Part shown: in pieces, positions 2,828 to 25,086 of the stretch
How the letters are laid out: each line of letters opens with the position of its first letter
Numbering within the stretch: the stretch's first letter is position 1
NCBI GenBank assembly: GCA_018335795.1
Contig: JAGXRP010000062.1
Span: 1 to 36,936 of the forward strand
Direction of reading: 5' to 3'
Length of the DNA stretch: 36,936 nucleotides
Source of the DNA: Desulfobulbaceae bacterium
GTDB taxonomy: Bacteria > Bacteroidota > Ignavibacteria > Kapaibacteriales > UBA2268
The notes under the pieces: generated by a model
Told to the model about the DNA's origin: nothing
Databases searched by the model: none
The model's input: the letters and a program-made list of their open reading frames with translations, nothing else
Translations under genes and position numbers: made by a program

Positions 2828-3586
2828 TTGAAAAAAATAATTATTATATACGTTCTGATTGTATTGCTTTTTCCGTTTATAGCCGAATCCCAGCAATCTC
2901 AGCAGCTTCAACTGCCGAATCTTTCGGTTAATGTGGGGATGGATGACGGCGGAAATGATTTGGTGTTGACGCTCCAAATTCTTGCCGTGCTTACAGTTTT
3001 GACTTTGGCGCCTTCGATTTTGGTGATGATGACTTGTTTCACTCGGATTATCGTAGTGTTCCACTTTCTGAAGCAGGCGATGGGAGCACATACACAGCCT
3101 CCAAATCAACTACTTACGGGATTGGCACTGTTCCTTACATTTTTCGTTATGCAACCGGTACTCGACCAATCTAACGAGCGCGGGATTCAGCCTTACATGA
3201 GAGATGAAATCACGCAAGAAGTGGCTGTCGAGAATATTATTCAACCCTTCCGCGATTTTATGCTCAAGCATACTCGGGAAGAAGATTTGGCTCTTTTTGT
3301 CAAACTTAGCGGCTCCGAAAAACCTATGGATGAGACTGAACTTACGATTTGGGCGATTATTCCGGCATATACGATTAGCGAGCTTAGGGTGGCATTCCAA
3401 ATCGGGTTTATGCTTTTTGTGCCCTTTTTGGTGCTGGATATGATTATAGCGAGCACGTTGATGTCCCTTGGAATGTTCCTTCTGCCACCACAACTTATCT
3501 CATTGCCGATTAAGCTCTTGCTGTTCATTTTGGTGGACGGTTGGAACTTAGTCATTGATTCATTAATGAAAAGTATTTTGAATTAG
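2828..3586 (+). CDS. fliP: Flagellar export-gate protein FliP
   Basis: FliP is a core subunit of the FliPQR export gate in the flagellar type III apparatus of the inner membrane. The 252-residue protein has the typical cleavable signal peptide (MKKIIIIYVLIVLLFPFIAE), then TM segments with APSILVMMTCFTRIIVVF, the LLTGLALFLTFFVM helix, a periplasmic loop, FQIGFMLFVPFLVLDMIIAS and a final amphipathic VDGWNLVIDSL helix. I place the start at TTG 2828-2830: an in-frame TAA lies two codons upstream, and the next internal Met (residue 38) would remove the signal peptide. The ribosome-binding site is weak. It heads a tight operon, with fliQ starting eight bases after its stop. Confidence 0.96.
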   Translation: MKKIIIIYVLIVLLFPFIAESQQSQQLQLPNLSVNVGMDDGGNDLVLTLQILAVLTVLTLAPSILVMMTCFTRIIVVFHFLKQAMGAHTQPPNQLLTGLALFLTFFVMQPVLDQSNERGIQPYMRDEITQEVAVENIIQPFRDFMLKHTREEDLALFVKLSGSEKPMDETELTIWAIIPAYTISELRVAFQIGFMLFVPFLVLDMIIASTLMSLGMFLLPPQLISLPIKLLLFILVDGWNLVIDSLMKSILN

Positions 3587-3594
3587 GAGAAATT

Positions 3595-3858
3595 ATGACT
3601 GAGCAAATGGTAATTCAAATAGTGCGAGACGCTTTTTATCATGTCTTGCTGATTGTAGGTCCCTTGCTTTTGGTATCTTTGACTGTGGGTTTATTTATTG
3701 CGATTTTGCAAGCGGCTACGACTGTTTCCGAGCAAACTTTGACATTTGTACCAAAATTGATAGCGGTTTTCGTTGTAATAGTCTTGCTTTTGCCATTTAT
3801 GATACAGACGCTCAAAGCCTATATGATTGAAATTATGAATATTATCGCCGGTATGTAA
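3595..3858 (+). CDS. fliQ: Flagellar export-gate protein FliQ
   Basis: An 87-residue, two-helix membrane protein of the usual FliQ length, starting MTEQMVIQIVRDAFYHVL. The ATLQAATTVSEQTLTFVPK-like block appears here as AILQAATTVSEQTLTFVPK, the family hallmark between the two TM helices. FliQ packs around the FliP-FliR helical assembly and helps close the export channel. A strong ribosome-binding site (AGGAG, five bases before ATG) fixes the start. Its stop is two bases before the fliR GTG, so translation is probably coupled. Confidence 0.96.
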   Translation: MTEQMVIQIVRDAFYHVLLIVGPLLLVSLTVGLFIAILQAATTVSEQTLTFVPKLIAVFVVIVLLLPFMIQTLKAYMIEIMNIIAGM

Positions 3859-3860
3859 GA

Positions 3861-4661
3861 GTGATTGATGCTGCCACCTTACAACTACTCACAAGTAAAT
3901 TTTTGATTGGGACATTAATCTTCATCAGGATTTTGGGCGTATTTTCGGCAGCACCATTTTTCAAAGCAACCGCAATTATTCCCCAAGTAAAAATATTTCT
4001 TGCAGCATTGATTGCGATTTCGGTCACATCGGCTTTTTGGGAAGACCAACCTGTGATTGAATTTCACTTGTGGTATGTTACGCTTTTGGTGATGAAGGAA
4101 TTCCTTCTCGGTCTAATTATTGGATTTGCGGCTCATGCAGTATTTTTTGCCGCACGATTTGCAGGTGGTGTGATTGATATTGAAATGGGTTATCAAACTG
4201 CCGTTTTATTTGACCCATCGAATACTACTCCAACATTAGTCGGCGAATTCAAGGATATGATAGCCTTGATGCTGTTTTTAGTGCTTAATGGGCATCATCA
4301 CATTATCGAAGCGGCATATGTAAGTGTCCGAGCGGTTCCTTTGACCACATTTGCTATGACCGAAGCTACAGCCGCTTTGCTTGCAAAGTATGCAGTCACG
4401 GTATTTATTTTAGCAATAAAAATTTCCGCACCTATTCTCGTCGCATTATTTTGTACAAATCTTGCATTGGCTCTATTGGCAAGAATTGCTCCACAGACTA
4501 ATATTTTCATTCTGAGTTTTCAAGTTAAAGTAGCAGTCGGATTAATAATGTTGTTCATCTCGGTACCGATGGTAATCTATATTTTGAAATGGGCTTTGGG
4601 TTCGGTTCAACAAATTACATTCGAAATACTAATGAGTATGTATCCCGATAGGGTGTTGTGA
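3861..4661 (+). CDS. fliR: Flagellar export-gate protein FliR
   Basis: A 266-residue polytopic membrane protein of normal FliR length. Recognisable blocks are RILGVFSAAPFF near residue 30, LLGLIIGFAAHAVFFAARFAG, the DIEMGYQTAVLFDPSN loop, the LALLARIAPQTNIFILSFQ segment and a C-terminal hydrophobic helix. FliR supplies the single subunit that completes the FliP5-FliQ4-FliR1 gate. The start is GTG at 3861; the ATG at 3868 is in another frame. Only one base separates its stop from flhB, as in many fliR-flhB pairs, which in some species are fused. Confidence 0.96.
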   Translation: MIDAATLQLLTSKFLIGTLIFIRILGVFSAAPFFKATAIIPQVKIFLAALIAISVTSAFWEDQPVIEFHLWYVTLLVMKEFLLGLIIGFAAHAVFFAARFAGGVIDIEMGYQTAVLFDPSNTTPTLVGEFKDMIALMLFLVLNGHHHIIEAAYVSVRAVPLTTFAMTEATAALLAKYAVTVFILAIKISAPILVALFCTNLALALLARIAPQTNIFILSFQVKVAVGLIMLFISVPMVIYILKWALGSVQQITFEILMSMYPDRVL

Positions 4662-4662
4662 C

Positions 4663-5745
4663 ATGGCTGAAAACAAAGACGGACAAGAGAAGACCGAACT
4701 TGCCACCCCGAAGCGGCTAACTGAAGGGAGAGAGAAAGGGCAAGTTGCAAAGAGCATGGACGTAACCACTTCCGCCGTGTTGATGATAGGTGTGATGGGG
4801 ATTTTCTTAATGGGAGGCGAATTAATTTCGAGCTATCAGCATTTCATGAAAGGGATTTTCCAAAATCTTGGGTCATTGCGAGTCACCGAAGAAGGTTTTC
4901 CCGCTTTTGCCGGTGAAATCATCGGTTTTATGTCCACACTTTTGCTCCCTATTATGTTTTTGGTCTTTTTCGTGGCATTAGCGGCAGAAATATCCCAAGT
5001 TGGGTTAAAAATAGCCACAAAGAAATTTACCGAGGGGTTGAGATTCAAACAAATTTTCAATCCATTTAGCGGTATGAAACGAATTTTCTTTTCAAAACAT
5101 TCTTTGTTTGAATTAGCAAAGGGATTAACCAAGATTTTTGTTCTTGGGTCTGTTGTTGTGACTGTGTTGTGGAACAAGGACGAAGAAATTATCGGGCTTT
5201 TGGAACGCCCATTTGCCGACGTAGGCATGTTGATGGCAGGTTTAGCATTCGAAATTATGTGGAAAGTCGGGGCTGTTTACATTATCATTGCTTTTGCAGA
5301 TTTCACTTACCAAAAGTGGAAATTCAAGGAAGATATGAAAATGACCAAGAAGGAAACTAAGGACGAATCTCGACAAGCGGAAGGCGACCCGATGATAAAA
5401 TCTCGTATAAGGCAATTGATGAGAGGACGAATTAGGAAGTTGATGCTCAAAAATGTAAAAACGGCAGATGTCGTTATCACCAATCCTACTCACTTTGCTG
5501 TTGCATTGGCATATTCGCCCGGAGAATCGGGTGCTCCGAGAGTCGTGGCTAAGGGAGTGGACTTCATGGCACTTAGCATCAGAACTTTAGCCGAAGATTT
5601 TGATGTTCCGATAGTTGAAAATCCTCCTTTGGCTCGAACTTTATATTTTTCTACAGAAGTTGATATGGAAATTCCTGAGAATTTGTTCAAAGCTGTAGCT
5701 CAAATTCTCGCATATGTTTATACTCTAAAGAACAAAAAGCTCTAA
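4663..5745 (+). CDS. flhB: Flagellar export specificity switch FlhB
   Basis: A 360-residue FlhB. The N-terminal TEKATPKR-like motif is present as KTELATPKRLTEGREKGQ, four TM segments follow, then a cytoplasmic linker with the KMTKKETKDESRQAEGDP block. The autocleavage motif NPTH is intact at residues 274-277 (ITNPTHFAVALAY). FlhB switches the apparatus from rod/hook to filament substrates by self-cleavage between Asn and Pro. The intact motif and normal length indicate a working gene. It overlaps no neighbour and begins one base after fliR. Confidence 0.97.
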   Translation: MAENKDGQEKTELATPKRLTEGREKGQVAKSMDVTTSAVLMIGVMGIFLMGGELISSYQHFMKGIFQNLGSLRVTEEGFPAFAGEIIGFMSTLLLPIMFLVFFVALAAEISQVGLKIATKKFTEGLRFKQIFNPFSGMKRIFFSKHSLFELAKGLTKIFVLGSVVVTVLWNKDEEIIGLLERPFADVGMLMAGLAFEIMWKVGAVYIIIAFADFTYQKWKFKEDMKMTKKETKDESRQAEGDPMIKSRIRQLMRGRIRKLMLKNVKTADVVITNPTHFAVALAYSPGESGAPRVVAKGVDFMALSIRTLAEDFDVPIVENPPLARTLYFSTEVDMEIPENLFKAVAQILAYVYTLKNKKL

Positions 5746-5795
5746 ATGGCAAGGCTTTTGTTATTCTTATATTTTAAGAGATTTAACACTGAAAT

Positions 5796-7928
5796 ATGGC
5801 TAAAAGCAAACAATTAGGACCTATGAAAAGCTCCGGAATGGATAATTTCTCTCGGGGTTTTGGTTCGATGATGACCAAAAACAATGACGTATTCTTAGCA
5901 GGCGGAATCATGTTGATTATTGCATTGTTAATTGTACCCTTGCCTACATTCATGCTTGATTTGCTTTTGTCTATCAATATTGCAGTAGCTATTTTGATTT
6001 TGCTCGTATCCCTTTACCTTAAGACACCTCTTGATTTGGCTTCATTCCCAACGATTTTGCTAATTACTACTTTATTCCGGCTTGGGTTGAACGTTGCCTC
6101 AACAAGGCTGATACTTGGTCAGGCTGAAGCGGGGCAAATAATCGAAGCATTCGGGGAATTCGTGATTGGGGGCAATTATGTTGTAGGTATCATCATATTT
6201 CTAATCTTGGTATTAATCAATTTTATAGTCATCATCAAAGGTTCGAGCAGAATTGCAGAAGTTTCTGCAAGGTTTACTTTGGATGCTTTGCCGGGCAAGC
6301 AGATGTCAATAGATGCGGATATGAATGCAGGATATATTGACGAGCAAACGGCACGCAAACGTCGTGAAACCTTGACAAAAGAGGCGGACTTCTTCGGTGC
6401 AATGGATGGCGCAGCAAAGTTTATTCGAGGTGATGCGATAGCCGGATTGGTAATTACTGCTATTAATATCATGGGTGGATTCGCTATCGGAGTACTCCAA
6501 CTCGGGATGCCAATCGCCGAAGCAGCGGCAATCTATTCTATTTTAACGATTGGTGATGGCTTAGTTTCCCAAATACCGTCCTTGCTCATTTCTGTGTCGG
6601 GCGGTTTGGTCGTGACTCGTTCGGCATCCTCAGACAATTTGGATATCGAAATTGGCAAGCAATTCGTTGGCAAACCCAAACCTATGTATATCGCTTCGGT
6701 AGCTCTTCTGGGGATTGGTTTATTGCCTGGTTTTCCACTAATACCATTTTTGTTTTTGTCCGGAATTTCTGGTGTTGGTGCTTATTTACGTTCAAAGTCC
6801 ATTGCGAGGGAAGAGCAAAATAAATTAAATGAGGAATTGCAAGAAACCGAGCAAATACGAAAACCCGAAGACCAACCCGTTGAAGAATTGTTGAAGGTTG
6901 ACCCCGTGGAAATTGAACTTGGCTATAGTTTAATAATGTTAGTGGACGAATCCCAAGGCGGAGATTTGTTCAAGCGAATAACCAATGTTCGCAGGCAACT
7001 TGCTATCGAGCTTGGTATAATATTGCCACCAGTTAGAGTGAGAGACAATTTGCAGTTAGAGCCGGAAGAATATGTAGTCAAAATCCGAGGCAATGAAAAT
7101 ACCCGCAATATGCTATATCCACAAATGTTATTGGCTATGAATCCGGGTACTGCCGAAGGCAATTTGAAAGGAATTCAAGTTACTGAACCTGTATTTGGAT
7201 TGCCGGCAACATGGATAAGCTATAATGACCGCGAAAATGCGGAATTAATGGGATTCACAGTCGTAGAAGCCGCAACGGTTCTGACAACTCATCTAACTGA
7301 ATTACTACGTCGAAATGCAGATAAATTAATAACCCGCCAAGACATTAAGCATCTATTAGAAAATTTGAAAGAAGATTATCCGGCATTAATTGAGGAAATT
7401 TCTCCCGATACATTGCCTGTTTCTACACTTCAAAAAATTGTTCAAAAATTGCTTTCAGAAGGCATTCCGATTAGAGATTTGGCAATAATAAGCGAATCTT
7501 TGCTCGAATATTATAAAGTAACTAAAAATACTGACGTTTTGACCGAATATGTTCGCCATAGTTTGTCTGAAACGATTAAGAAGTTATATCAAGACCAAAA
7601 TGGCGTCATTCACGCTATTGCATTAGACCACGAGGTCGAAGAGATTTTGACAAATGCATTGCAAACCAATAATCAAAATGCTTTGGTGCCATCACTCGGA
7701 TTATCTCCTGAAATACTGAATGTAATCAACCAAAGTATTTCGGAATCTATTGACGAAGTCACGATAGCAGGCTATATGCCCGTTGTTATTTGCTCTGCTC
7801 AAGTGCGTCCCTATTTTTATCGAATGATTCATTCTACTTACCCGATGGTTAGTGTGATTAGTTATACCGAATTACCCGCAGAAACCGACATTGAAATCTT
7901 AAGTCGCGTTCAAATGCAATTTACGTAA
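5796..7928 (+). CDS. flhA: Flagellar export channel protein FlhA
   Basis: A 710-residue FlhA/FHIPEP protein: about eight TM segments in the N-terminal half (residues ~33-330), a linker, and a large cytoplasmic domain forming the nonameric substrate-docking ring. The FHIPEP signature RFTLDALPGKQMSIDADMNA lies at residues 159-178, followed by the GYIDEQTARKRR and DFFGAMDGAAKF blocks. The C-terminus carries the VTIAGYMPVVICSAQVRPYF block. It is separated from flhB by 50 bases without a terminator, so it probably belongs to the same transcript. The ribosome-binding site is weak. The usual downstream genes flhF and fliA are replaced here by a J-domain gene. Confidence 0.97.
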   Translation: MAKSKQLGPMKSSGMDNFSRGFGSMMTKNNDVFLAGGIMLIIALLIVPLPTFMLDLLLSINIAVAILILLVSLYLKTPLDLASFPTILLITTLFRLGLNVASTRLILGQAEAGQIIEAFGEFVIGGNYVVGIIIFLILVLINFIVIIKGSSRIAEVSARFTLDALPGKQMSIDADMNAGYIDEQTARKRRETLTKEADFFGAMDGAAKFIRGDAIAGLVITAINIMGGFAIGVLQLGMPIAEAAAIYSILTIGDGLVSQIPSLLISVSGGLVVTRSASSDNLDIEIGKQFVGKPKPMYIASVALLGIGLLPGFPLIPFLFLSGISGVGAYLRSKSIAREEQNKLNEELQETEQIRKPEDQPVEELLKVDPVEIELGYSLIMLVDESQGGDLFKRITNVRRQLAIELGIILPPVRVRDNLQLEPEEYVVKIRGNENTRNMLYPQMLLAMNPGTAEGNLKGIQVTEPVFGLPATWISYNDRENAELMGFTVVEAATVLTTHLTELLRRNADKLITRQDIKHLLENLKEDYPALIEEISPDTLPVSTLQKIVQKLLSEGIPIRDLAIISESLLEYYKVTKNTDVLTEYVRHSLSETIKKLYQDQNGVIHAIALDHEVEEILTNALQTNNQNALVPSLGLSPEILNVINQSISESIDEVTIAGYMPVVICSAQVRPYFYRMIHSTYPMVSVISYTELPAETDIEILSRVQMQFT

Positions 7929-21836: not shown

Positions 21837-21955
21837 ATTTGTACTATTTTAATATAATTATTTTCGTATTAATTATATTATTTTTCAGATTTGGAAATTG
21901 CAAATATCATACTTAGTTTTGCAAGAGAAATTGTTAACTAATAGTGGAAATTGTT

Positions 21956-23434
21956 ATGTCGAATGCTCCTCAAGTAGAACTTGCAAGGCTCAGATTACTA
22001 AATGAAAAACGATTTATCAATGCTTCGTTGACGTACATTCGTGAAATGCTGGCTAACTATGGTTTCGATGATAGAGAGCTTATGCAAATAGAACTCGTCG
22101 CAGAGGAAACTTCCGTCAGCATTATCGAAAACTCTTTCGATGCAGACGAAAGTGGATATTACGACATTGCCTTAATCCGTCAACCAAACAAAATTGTACT
22201 CGCATTTGAAGACAAGGGCTTGCCATTCGACATAAAACAACTCGAAAGCAACGACGAGGGAGCTCTCCGAGTGCTTCTGATGAAAAAGATAGCCGACGAG
22301 TTGCATTTTATAAATCTCGGCAAAAATGGCAAAAGAATTGAAATTCATAAAAATTTACCTGCAAAAACTATCGCGGAATACACTGAGCAAGACCTTTCGC
22401 CAATAGACCCCGAAACCACGCGCGCTTCCGATGATGTAGAATTTATGCTGATGAGTTCCGAGCAATCAGTCGCATTGGCTCGCTGTGTCTATCGCTCTTA
22501 TGGGCTGACCTATGCAGGGGATTTTATCTATTATCCCGAGAAAATTAGCGAGTTGCTCGATTCTAAGCTGCTGCGCTCGGTGGTGGCACTCAATTCGGAA
22601 GGCGAGCTCGTTGCACATTTGGGGCTGAATTTCTTGACCAAAGACGCTAAGGTAGGCGAGACCGGGCAAGCGGTGGTTGACCCGCGTTATCGTGGACGCG
22701 GACTTTTCGAAAGCTTGAAAAAATGGCTTGCAAAACATTCAGAATCAATCGGCGATTTCGGATTTTACAGCGAAGCAGTCTCAATTCACCCTTACACACA
22801 AAAGGGCAACATAGCACTTGGTGGACACGAAACAGGAATCGTACTCGGTTACGTTCCGCCGAATTTGACTTTCAAGAAAATAGGTAATTTAGGCGAAGGC
22901 AAACGCCAAACGGCAGTGTTATTCTATCTTCGTGTAAACGAAGAACCTTTTAGGGATGTATATTTACCCGAGAATCATAAGGAAATGCTCACGAAAATAA
23001 TAAATGAAAATCAATTGAATCGCGAAATAAAAGTAATTAGCGACGATTTTGTAGTTGAAAATGAAAAATCCGAAATTGAAGTTCGAGTCAAACCTGATTG
23101 GGGGCAAGCACATTTAATCGTACATCGCTTTGGGGCAGATTTCCCCGATATCATTGAATATAATTTGCGTGATATTATCCGCCGCAAAATCGAATATACT
23201 TATATTGACATGCCATTCAGCTATCCTGCAACCGCACATTTTTGTCCGATGCTCGAATCATTGGGATTTTTCTTCTCGGGTATAATTCCCGAATTATTCG
23301 ATGGTGATGCATTTAGATTGCAATTCCTCAATCACGTAGAAATTGATGCAGACAAAATCTGTACAGCATCGAAATTTGGCAAAGAATTGCTCGATTATTG
23401 CCTTGCAGAACGTGAAAGAGTAGGCGGGGTTTAG
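21956..23434 (+). CDS. RsbW-like ATPase domain fused to GNAT acetyltransferase
   Basis: A 492-residue fusion. Residues ~10-135 resemble the HATPase_c_2 fold of anti-sigma kinases such as RsbW/SpoIIAB: IELVAEETSVSII occupies the N-box position and LAFEDKGLPFD (82-92) is the D-x-G-x-x-F G1 box. The N-box asparagine that binds Mg-ATP is Ser55. Residues ~160-310 are a GNAT acetyltransferase with the CoA loop in VVDPRYRGRGLFESLKKW (240-257). The last ~170 residues may be a second, degenerate acyltransferase-like domain. A GTG at 21944 would add four residues; I prefer the ATG at 21956. Substrate and partner are unknown; the gene is monocistronic after the dnaJ terminator. Confidence 0.8.
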   Translation: MSNAPQVELARLRLLNEKRFINASLTYIREMLANYGFDDRELMQIELVAEETSVSIIENSFDADESGYYDIALIRQPNKIVLAFEDKGLPFDIKQLESNDEGALRVLLMKKIADELHFINLGKNGKRIEIHKNLPAKTIAEYTEQDLSPIDPETTRASDDVEFMLMSSEQSVALARCVYRSYGLTYAGDFIYYPEKISELLDSKLLRSVVALNSEGELVAHLGLNFLTKDAKVGETGQAVVDPRYRGRGLFESLKKWLAKHSESIGDFGFYSEAVSIHPYTQKGNIALGGHETGIVLGYVPPNLTFKKIGNLGEGKRQTAVLFYLRVNEEPFRDVYLPENHKEMLTKIINENQLNREIKVISDDFVVENEKSEIEVRVKPDWGQAHLIVHRFGADFPDIIEYNLRDIIRRKIEYTYIDMPFSYPATAHFCPMLESLGFFFSGIIPELFDGDAFRLQFLNHVEIDADKICTASKFGKELLDYCLAERERVGGV

Positions 23435-24297: not shown

Positions 24298-25086
24298 ATG
24301 GCAAATGCCAACCAAAATAATATTGCATTAACATATTTTGAACTTCTACAACAGCAAAATTTTCAGCTTGATAAATTAGACTATTCCTTGCTCGAAAAAC
24401 ACAAATCAAAGCTCCAAATAATTGCGGATATTTCTAATTGTGGAGTAAGCGTTTTTGATTTATTCAAAAAAGAACATGTCTTTTTCTCACCAAATTTTGG
24501 GGCCCTACTCGGTTATGATTTGAATAATATTATGCAACAAGAGCACGATTATTGGGATTCACTTATTCATCCTGACGATTATATTATGCTCATGGAAGTA
24601 GGGATAACTTTACTTAAGCTCTTTTTCAAATTAAACAAAGAAGATAAAATCAACCATAAATTAGTCAATGATTACCGAATTTTAAATGCGAATGGCGAAT
24701 ATGTTAGAGTTATTGAGCAACACCAAGCTCTTGAATTGGACGAATTTGGTAATTTGTGGTTATCATTGAGCATAATAGATATTTCACCTAACCAAGACAT
24801 TAGCCATGGACTGAAAAGTCAGCTTCTGAATTTTAAATCAGGGAAAATTATACCATTTAATGATGATAAAAGAGAAAATGAAAACATTAGTATAGTTTTA
24901 TCAAAAAGAGAATTGCAAATATTACAAATGGTTAGAGATGGGCTTTTGAGTAAAGAAATTTCCAATGAATTGGATATAAGTTTGCATACAGTAAATACTC
25001 ATCGCCAAAGAGTCTTAGAAAAATTAGGTGCAAATAATTCTATGGAGGCAGTAGTATTTGCCTCTCGGCTTGGGCTATTACAATAA
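24298..25086 (+). CDS. PAS-domain LuxR-family transcriptional regulator
   Basis: A 262-residue cytoplasmic regulator. Residues ~38-165 form a PAS domain (FFSPNFGALLGYDLNNI, WDSLIHPDDY, then a strand with DISPNQD). Residues ~200-262 form a LuxR/GerE DNA-binding domain with LSKRELQILQMVRDGLLSKE, ISLHTVNTHRQRVLEKLG and a final helix. There is no receiver domain, so activity is probably set by a ligand or partner sensed by PAS rather than by phosphorylation. Several Bacteroidota proteins of this type are solitary. The next gene downstream, 79 bases away, is a TonB-dependent receptor, a plausible target. Confidence 0.9.
   Translation: MANANQNNIALTYFELLQQQNFQLDKLDYSLLEKHKSKLQIIADISNCGVSVFDLFKKEHVFFSPNFGALLGYDLNNIMQQEHDYWDSLIHPDDYIMLMEVGITLLKLFFKLNKEDKINHKLVNDYRILNANGEYVRVIEQHQALELDEFGNLWLSLSIIDISPNQDISHGLKSQLLNFKSGKIIPFNDDKRENENISIVLSKRELQILQMVRDGLLSKEISNELDISLHTVNTHRQRVLEKLGANNSMEAVVFASRLGLLQ

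Follow-up and report, generated by a model that had tools for sequence, protein, structure and literature searches.

Can an RsbW/SpoIIAB-like domain that lacks the asparagine of its N-box, and that is joined to an acetyltransferase, still serve as a kinase and, if not, what is it kept for? The question is raised by one gene in a stretch of 36,936 nucleotides (contig JAGXRP010000062.1 of assembly GCA_018335795.1), referred to here as a whole as the window. The first-pass annotation of this gene, made from the letters themselves, had proposed a partner-switching module that has lost its kinase activity and now steers an acetyltransferase, linking protein acetylation to sigma/anti-sigma signaling. 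The features relevant to the answer are collected in Table 1.

Table 1. Features of the HATPase-GNAT fusion gene and its product, in window coordinates
Feature	Position	Strand	Basis or remark
HATPase-GNAT fusion gene	21956..23434	+	492 aa; 4 residues longer if begun at the in-frame GTG at 21944
RsbW/SpoIIAB-like HATPase domain, residues 5-137	21968..22366	+	Pfam HATPase_c_2; Z 17.6 vs RsbW 6m37_C; profile E 1.5e-14
N-box region E51-F61, where Ser55 (22118-22120) aligns with the N-box Asn	22106..22138	+	profile alignment
G1 box D86-K-G88-L-P-F91, kept	22211..22228	+	alignment with RsbW
Short ATP-lid segment, residues 89-102 (14 residues)	22220..22261	+	family alignment; 14 in own clade
Degraded G2 motif A103-L-R105	22262..22270	+	both Gly kept in 28/29 Asn-type rows
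GNAT domain, residues 159-333	22430..22954	+	Z 17.2 vs RimI 5isv_A; Pfam Acetyltransf_1
Predicted acetyl-CoA loop R246-G-R-G249-L-F251	22691..22708	+	Phe where the motif ends in Gly/Ala
C-terminal weakly GNAT-like domain, residues 338-490	22967..23425	+	pLDDT 93.1; GNATs at Z about 6-7

Architecture of the fusion protein

The proposed fusion of an RsbW-like domain to a GNAT domain is borne out by both profile searches and structure comparison. Pfam matches above the respective cut-offs were obtained for HATPase_c_2 at residues 25 to 130 (E 1e-6) and for Acetyltransf_1 at residues 207 to 264 (E 8e-5), and a profile of the family, aligned over the HATPase domain, matched RsbW with an E value of 1.5e-14. 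In an AlphaFold2 model of the 492-residue protein, built from 17 sequences and with a mean pLDDT of 83.6, residues 5 to 137 superposed on RsbW (6m37_C; Z 17.6, rmsd 1.9, 115 residues) and on SpoIIAB (1th8_A; Z 16.8, rmsd 3.0 over 129 residues), and residues from about 160 to 333 superposed on RimI (5isv_A; Z 17.2, rmsd 4.4, 156 residues). The remaining, C-terminal domain was modeled with a pLDDT of 93.1 when folded alone; its structure matches were weak (pre-Nudix chains at Z about 8, GNATs at Z about 6 to 7), and the model indicates a domain that may be called, at most, weakly GNAT-like. Each of the two other genomes searched from the genus has an orthologue that is 92% identical, with Ser55 common to all three, which rules out a fusion created by chance or misassembly.

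The acetyl-CoA loop of GNAT enzymes follows the motif Q/R-x-x-G-x-G/A, and an intact R-x-x-G-x-G had been reported for this protein. The letters in question do exist (R244-Y-R-G247-R-G249), but they are not in the register of the loop: when the GNAT profile was aligned with the GNATs of PDB entries 3t90 and 3fb3, the loop came to lie at R246-G-R-G249-L-F251, with F251 falling on the last glycine of the motif. Hence, R246 and G249 match the Q/R-x-x-G part, and the place of the final Gly/Ala is occupied by F251. Since 54 of 59 family members carry Phe, Met or Leu here, the change is a trait of the family; R246 is kept in 58 of the 59.

Distribution of the family

Homologues that keep both domains, on which the first-pass annotation had made its reading depend, amount to 59 distinct full-length proteins from several phyla. 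These were retained from 98 open reading frames that matched the family profile in 111 loci, the other 39 being dropped as duplicates or partial sequences (among them L022, L005, L102, L098, L025, L026 and L093, the last with one stop, in G483). GTDB genomes contributed 19 loci with relatives, mostly of full length, in records labeled as Cloacimonadota, Omnitrophota, Geobacteraceae, Desulfarculaceae, Comamonas, Pelotomaculum, Ignavibacteria and others. At E up to 1e-30, relatives are present in 22 of the 395 genomes from the window's phylum. At E up to 1e-60, they are present in 16 of 277 from the class of a Geobacteraceae metagenome-assembled genome (MAG), in 11 of 245 from the class of an Ignavibacteriaceae MAG and in 2 of 349 from the order of Comamonas denitrificans, one of these two being GNAT-only. 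Among the nearest relatives sampled, 7 of 60 gave a match at 1e-5; long matches, covering much of the protein or its GNAT part, came from G001, G002, G008 and G043, and short RsbW-like proteins from G007 and G052. A tblastn search of PLSDB returned no plasmid relatives.

Two relatives, L005/L142 and L102/L143, one of them encoded in a genome from the window's own taxonomic family, consist of the GNAT part without the HATPase domain, which is thus not always needed. A search for remains of a HATPase domain next to L142 and L143 gave no convincing match, the best among the matches listed having an E value of 0.06.

The ATP site of the HATPase domain

The ATP site of RsbW-like kinases is described by boxes named N, G1 and G2, and the N-box asparagine binds Mg. 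The register of the N-box was set by aligning sequences of RsbW and SpoIIAB to a profile built from 13 members of the family; in this alignment, position 55 coincides with the Asn of RsbW (6m36) and of SpoIIAB (1til, 1l0o and 1th8), confirming that Ser55 stands in its place. Glu51 aligns with the N-box Glu of both kinases and is invariant in 59 of 59 family members. The D-x-G-x-x-F box was also rightly recognized, since D86-K-G88-L-P-F91 lies where RsbW has D-E-G-D-S-F. The defect is wider than the first-pass annotation had it, however: the Gly-x-Gly of G2 has become A103-L-R105, and the ATP lid is short, its segment counting 14 residues in the window protein at a place where RsbW and SpoIIAB carry insertions. 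What is kept, then, is the N-box Glu51 and D86-x-G88 of G1.

An asparagine from elsewhere might have filled the N-box, and N59, one helical turn past Ser55, was checked as such a substitute; it was rejected because just 6 of the 12 Ser-type rows with a short lid have Asn at that position. Three further HATPase_c_2 proteins of the same genome exceed the cut-off, and all three have Asn in the expected motif. With the N-box Asn, the G2 glycines and the ATP lid all altered, the proposed loss of kinase activity is well supported at the level of sequence, and the fused HATPase domain has probably lost ATP binding.

Repeated loss of the N-box asparagine

Position 55 is Asn in 29 of the 59 proteins, Asp in 14, Ser in 13, Tyr in 2 and Phe in 1. 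A tree was built from the GNAT part, so that the domain carrying the trait did not contribute to it. On this tree, the distribution of Asn and not-Asn needs 7 changes, all 7 of them forced by well-supported branches and contradicting a single loss; shuffled Asn labels need about 20 on the same tree. Seven changes are likewise required when all domains are used with the ATP-site columns removed (5 forced) and on the poorly resolved tree of the HATPase domain itself (only 2 forced). The window's genus groups with the Asn-bearing L010, L036 (= L119) and L020, apart from the other Ser clade. The AU test of one Ser clade gave a P value of 0.092 and thus does not reject that the two main Ser groups owe their Ser to one origin.

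Both glycines of G2 are present in 28 of 29 Asn-type rows versus 11 of the 30 others, and nine of these 11 belong to the Asp clade, in which 9 of 14 rows have both. In independent pairs, Asn and G2 were lost together in 5 cases and in opposite directions in 0, with 2 pairs showing no difference (P = 0.0625). Every one of the 27 rows in the clade to which the window protein belongs (here called the core clade) has a lid segment of 14 residues, versus 22 to 25 residues in all 32 other rows. Since rows with the short lid include 15 with Asn and 12 with Ser, lid shortening in the core clade seems, from the alignment, to have preceded the loss of Asn.

That the altered domain is nevertheless maintained follows from the strong purifying selection acting on it. 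Among the three genomes of the genus, dN/dS was 0.018 to 0.030 for the HATPase domain, similar to the 0.012 to 0.031 of the GNAT domain, and 0.043 to 0.076 for the C-terminal domain, with dS being high (0.89 to 1.70) in both comparisons that involve the window's genome and 0.26 to 0.42 in the third. The value for the HATPase domain excludes that it is decaying.

Neighborhoods of the window gene and its relatives

The window gene is preceded by grpE and dnaJ and followed by a DinB-family gene, with no STAS, kinase or phosphatase gene adjoining it. The genome does contain 10 STAS and 10 SpoIIE domains, located elsewhere than at the fusion locus. Elsewhere in the window, positions 24298 to 25086 encode a regulator that combines a PAS fold with a DNA-binding domain of the LuxR type (GerE), and positions 2828 to 7928 hold what we take to be flagellar-export-like genes (FliP, FliR, FlhB and FlhA-like).

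The link to partner switching, not visible at the window gene itself, is supported for the family, several members of which lie beside genes for STAS, Asn-bearing RsbW-like and SpoIIE proteins. The gene order is SpoIIE, HATPase, STAS, fusion in L016; HATPase, STAS, fusion in L119 (= L036) and L020; and STAS, fusion in L010. On the tree, L010, L036 and L020 are the Asn-bearing proteins closest to the window protein, and all have a STAS gene directly upstream of the fusion gene. In L124, in which position 55 is Tyr, a SpoIIE-HATPase fusion and a STAS gene precede the HATPase-GNAT fusion, and the Ser-type locus of Comamonas (L023) has LuxE, LuxC and the fusion gene, followed on the other strand by a HATPase and a divergent STAS gene, and SpoIIE. 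STAS, kinase and phosphatase accompany the fusion gene together in L016, L023 and L124, and the separate HATPases of these STAS-bearing loci have Asn in the expected motif. Another fusion gene, L150 of G483, lies beside a STAS gene and a SpoIIE-HATPase fusion and is broken by one stop; an intact copy is present in G482.

For a count of neighbors, we took 133 proteins encoded within two genes of the fusion in 37 chosen loci, some near-copies being left out and one marine Bacteroidota locus (L131) being included; only proteins of 80 to 900 residues were considered, by which the 901-residue LuxC of L023 was dropped. Among the Pfam families found were AMP-binding (10), MFS_1 (6), STAS (6), HATPase_c_2 (5), LuxC (4) and LuxE (4). 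Six STAS proteins compare with about 0.44 expected (Poisson P = 7e-6, for loci that are not independent) if the 10 STAS domains of G000, per an assumed count of roughly 3,000 genes, are taken as typical. In the core clade, STAS genes occur within two genes of the fusion in 5 of 27 rows, some of whose contigs end early. The link to sigma factors that the first-pass annotation had drawn was not recovered: the 133 neighbors match 164 Pfam families, and the 25 most frequent of these include none of sigma factors, rarer matches being possible.

Two STAS proteins of the window's genome lie beside RsbW-like genes and can be named, from sequence comparison, as candidate partners of the window protein. 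The one on contig 58 (21365-21709), divergent from its RsbW-like neighbor, gave the best BLAST score against the STAS proteins of L010 (35% identity), L016 (37%), L023 (32%) and L124 (35%), and the one on contig 77 (97967-98329) gave the best against those of L119 (38%) and L020 (34%), although general similarity among STAS domains may explain these scores.

The most regular arrangement was found in a marine Bacteroidota clade (L128 to L139 and L153 to L155), in which a STAS-like gene directly follows the fusion gene in 15 of 15 loci. Thirteen of these genes overlap the fusion gene if their earliest start is used, and two were read by eye. Asn has been lost from the N-box in 14 of the 15 fusion proteins, which have Asp instead, and is present in one. 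With E values of 0.01 or better, 10 of the 15 STAS-like proteins matched STAS_2 and 5 matched STAS (the one match shown singly was below the Pfam cut-off), and their profile matched RsbV with an E value of 0.005. The serine aligned with that of D-S-T in RsbV is kept in 14 of the 15, with Thr in the remaining one. In L128, the STAS-like gene is followed by a gene with a flavin-reductase domain and an M20-family peptidase gene; judged by eye, most of the clade's other loci continue with genes that resemble these in size and start.

Relation to known systems

Over residues 5 to 137, the fusion shares its fold (Z 16 to 18), its G1 box and its N-box Glu with RsbW and SpoIIAB. It differs from them in lacking the N-box Asn, the Gly-x-Gly of G2 and a full-length lid, in being joined to an enzyme and in having no sigma factor in evidence for its family. 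On the enzyme side, the closest parallel is formed by type III GNATs, in which an N-terminal extra domain, binding cAMP, NADP+ or amino acids (ACT domain; PMC8556138), is followed by the GNAT domain. As far as architecture goes, all 59 distinct full-length proteins likewise have their extra domain N-terminal to the GNAT domain; unlike in type III GNATs, that domain has an RsbW-like fold, the likely ligand of which would be a protein. The terms "ATPase" and "anti-sigma" have 0 occurrences in the text of that review examined (PMC8556138). Type V tandem GNATs (Eis) resemble the fusion, by architecture only, in having a GNAT domain followed by a second domain, which in the fusion is but weakly GNAT-like (Z about 6 to 7) and is accompanied by the additional HATPase domain.

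On the signaling side, the joint presence of STAS, RsbW-type HATPase and SpoIIE genes in L016, L023 and L124 is reminiscent of the SypA, RbaV and HmpV partner-switching systems. Where SypA and RbaV are STAS outputs whose target is called unknown (PMC8256260), these loci themselves encode a candidate target, the acetyltransferase with its RsbW-like domain. Type III GNATs (PMC8556138) and STAS outputs without a known target (PMC8256260) are the nearest known kinds. A full-text literature search, with most subscription papers outside its scope, found no RsbW- or HATPase_c_2-GNAT fusion; the parts are known, and the combination of a STAS-linked, kinase-dead HATPase domain with a GNAT domain was not found in the literature searched.

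A proposed STAS-operated acetyltransferase and its alternatives

The position of some relatives beside the rest of the stress switch suggests that a protein partner, and not a small molecule, controls the acetyltransferase. Specifically, we propose, as a reading that stands an even chance of being correct, that the fused RsbW-like domain is non-catalytic, docks a STAS protein and controls the acetyltransferase. A separate RsbW-type kinase, an arrangement kept by some relatives, would phosphorylate the STAS protein and a SpoIIE-type phosphatase would dephosphorylate it, upon which the dephosphorylated form would dock on the GNAT-fused HATPase domain and switch the acetyltransferase on or off. 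With kinase activity supplied by another protein, lid, N-box Asn and G2 glycines could become dispensable to the fused domain. The gene of the window's genus lies apart from such a module, and its STAS partner would have to come from elsewhere in the genome. The invariance of Glu51 fits STAS docking if this residue is taken as equivalent to the kinase Glu that contacts the STAS phospho-Ser in the SypE-SypA model (PMC10120452). Just 1 of 27 core rows has Arg at the place of the putative STAS-docking Arg of RsbW, in a helix where the alignment is uncertain, and the mode of docking may therefore differ. Moreover, since the Asn-type fusions of L016, L119 and L020 also lie beside a separate kinase, a spare kinase alone does not predict the loss of Asn.

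If the STAS neighbors do dock on the RsbW-like domain, partner switching would gain a concrete enzymatic target, and a protein-operated control domain would be added to the small-ligand ones known on GNATs. The broader claim, that widespread acetyltransferases are switched by STAS docking on a fused, repeatedly kinase-dead RsbW domain, we hold tentatively, as somewhat more likely to fail than to stand; if true, an enzyme instead of a sigma factor would be the direct output of partner switching, and the marine Bacteroidota pair of STAS-like and HATPase-GNAT proteins would be its minimal form. Having lost its ATP site repeatedly while staying under purifying selection, the family makes a usable series of bacterial pseudokinases.

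Other roles for the domain have to be weighed against STAS docking. It might bind adenine nucleotide without Mg-dependent chemistry and act as an energy sensor for the GNAT domain, a reading that gains some appeal from the conservation of G1 in Ser-type rows (D86 in 13 of 13, G88 in 12 of 13) and from the fused small-ligand domains known to control such GNATs (PMC8556138). We nonetheless consider it unlikely, given that the lid of the window protein is short and both of its G2 glycines are replaced, that the Asp clade has Glu at the place of D86 in 14 of 14 rows and that the STAS neighbors of the relatives would be left without explanation. Little credence is also due to a mere structural relic, holding the GNAT domain folded or oligomeric and conveying no signal: the window gene has no adjoining partner genes and the domain is dispensable, to judge from the GNAT-only relatives, but the HATPase domain is as constrained as the GNAT domain, and STAS or STAS-like genes recur beside relatives, including all 15 loci of the clade with Asn lost in 14. 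That Ser55 is tolerated and the domain is still an active Ser/Thr kinase, perhaps with the nearby N59 coordinating Mg, appears highly improbable; the retained Glu51 and G1 Asp would agree with it, whereas the variability of position 59 noted above and the alteration of both lid and G2 speak against it.

A further alternative concerns the substrate and is compatible with STAS docking: the fusion may be an enzyme of small-molecule acyl metabolism, working alongside LuxC acyl-CoA reductase, LuxE acyl ligases and an exporter, and not one of protein acetylation, a role that would in itself be a guess. LuxC adjoins the fusion gene in L114 to L117 and L023, and LuxE is found in the neighborhoods of L115 to L117, L123, L125 and L023, while MFS transporter genes lie beside L118, L125 and L120 and within the L023 cluster. 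The seven neighborhoods with LuxC or LuxE genes suggest small-molecule acyl chemistry at those loci. On the other hand, no LuxC, LuxE or exporter gene lies beside the window gene, whose genome has one weak LuxC-family match (22.6 bits versus a cut-off of 21), and inspection by eye of the stretches around the Cloacimonadota, Ignavibacteria and marine Bacteroidota relatives revealed none of these genes. We regard such a role as possible but rather doubtful.

The clusters of L114 to L117 and L023 combine LuxE with a LuxC of 890 to 901 residues that has an AMP-binding domain in its C-terminal half. As the Lux cluster is common to genomes from the class of the Geobacteraceae MAG and one Comamonas, horizontal transfer is suggested. 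Acetyl-CoA synthetases are targets of some GNATs. In four Ser-type loci of Ignavibacteria (L018, L021, L112 and L113), an acetyl-CoA-synthetase-like gene of 635 residues lies upstream of the fusion gene on the opposite strand, the L112 copy of which matches the Pfam families ACAS_N and AMP-binding.
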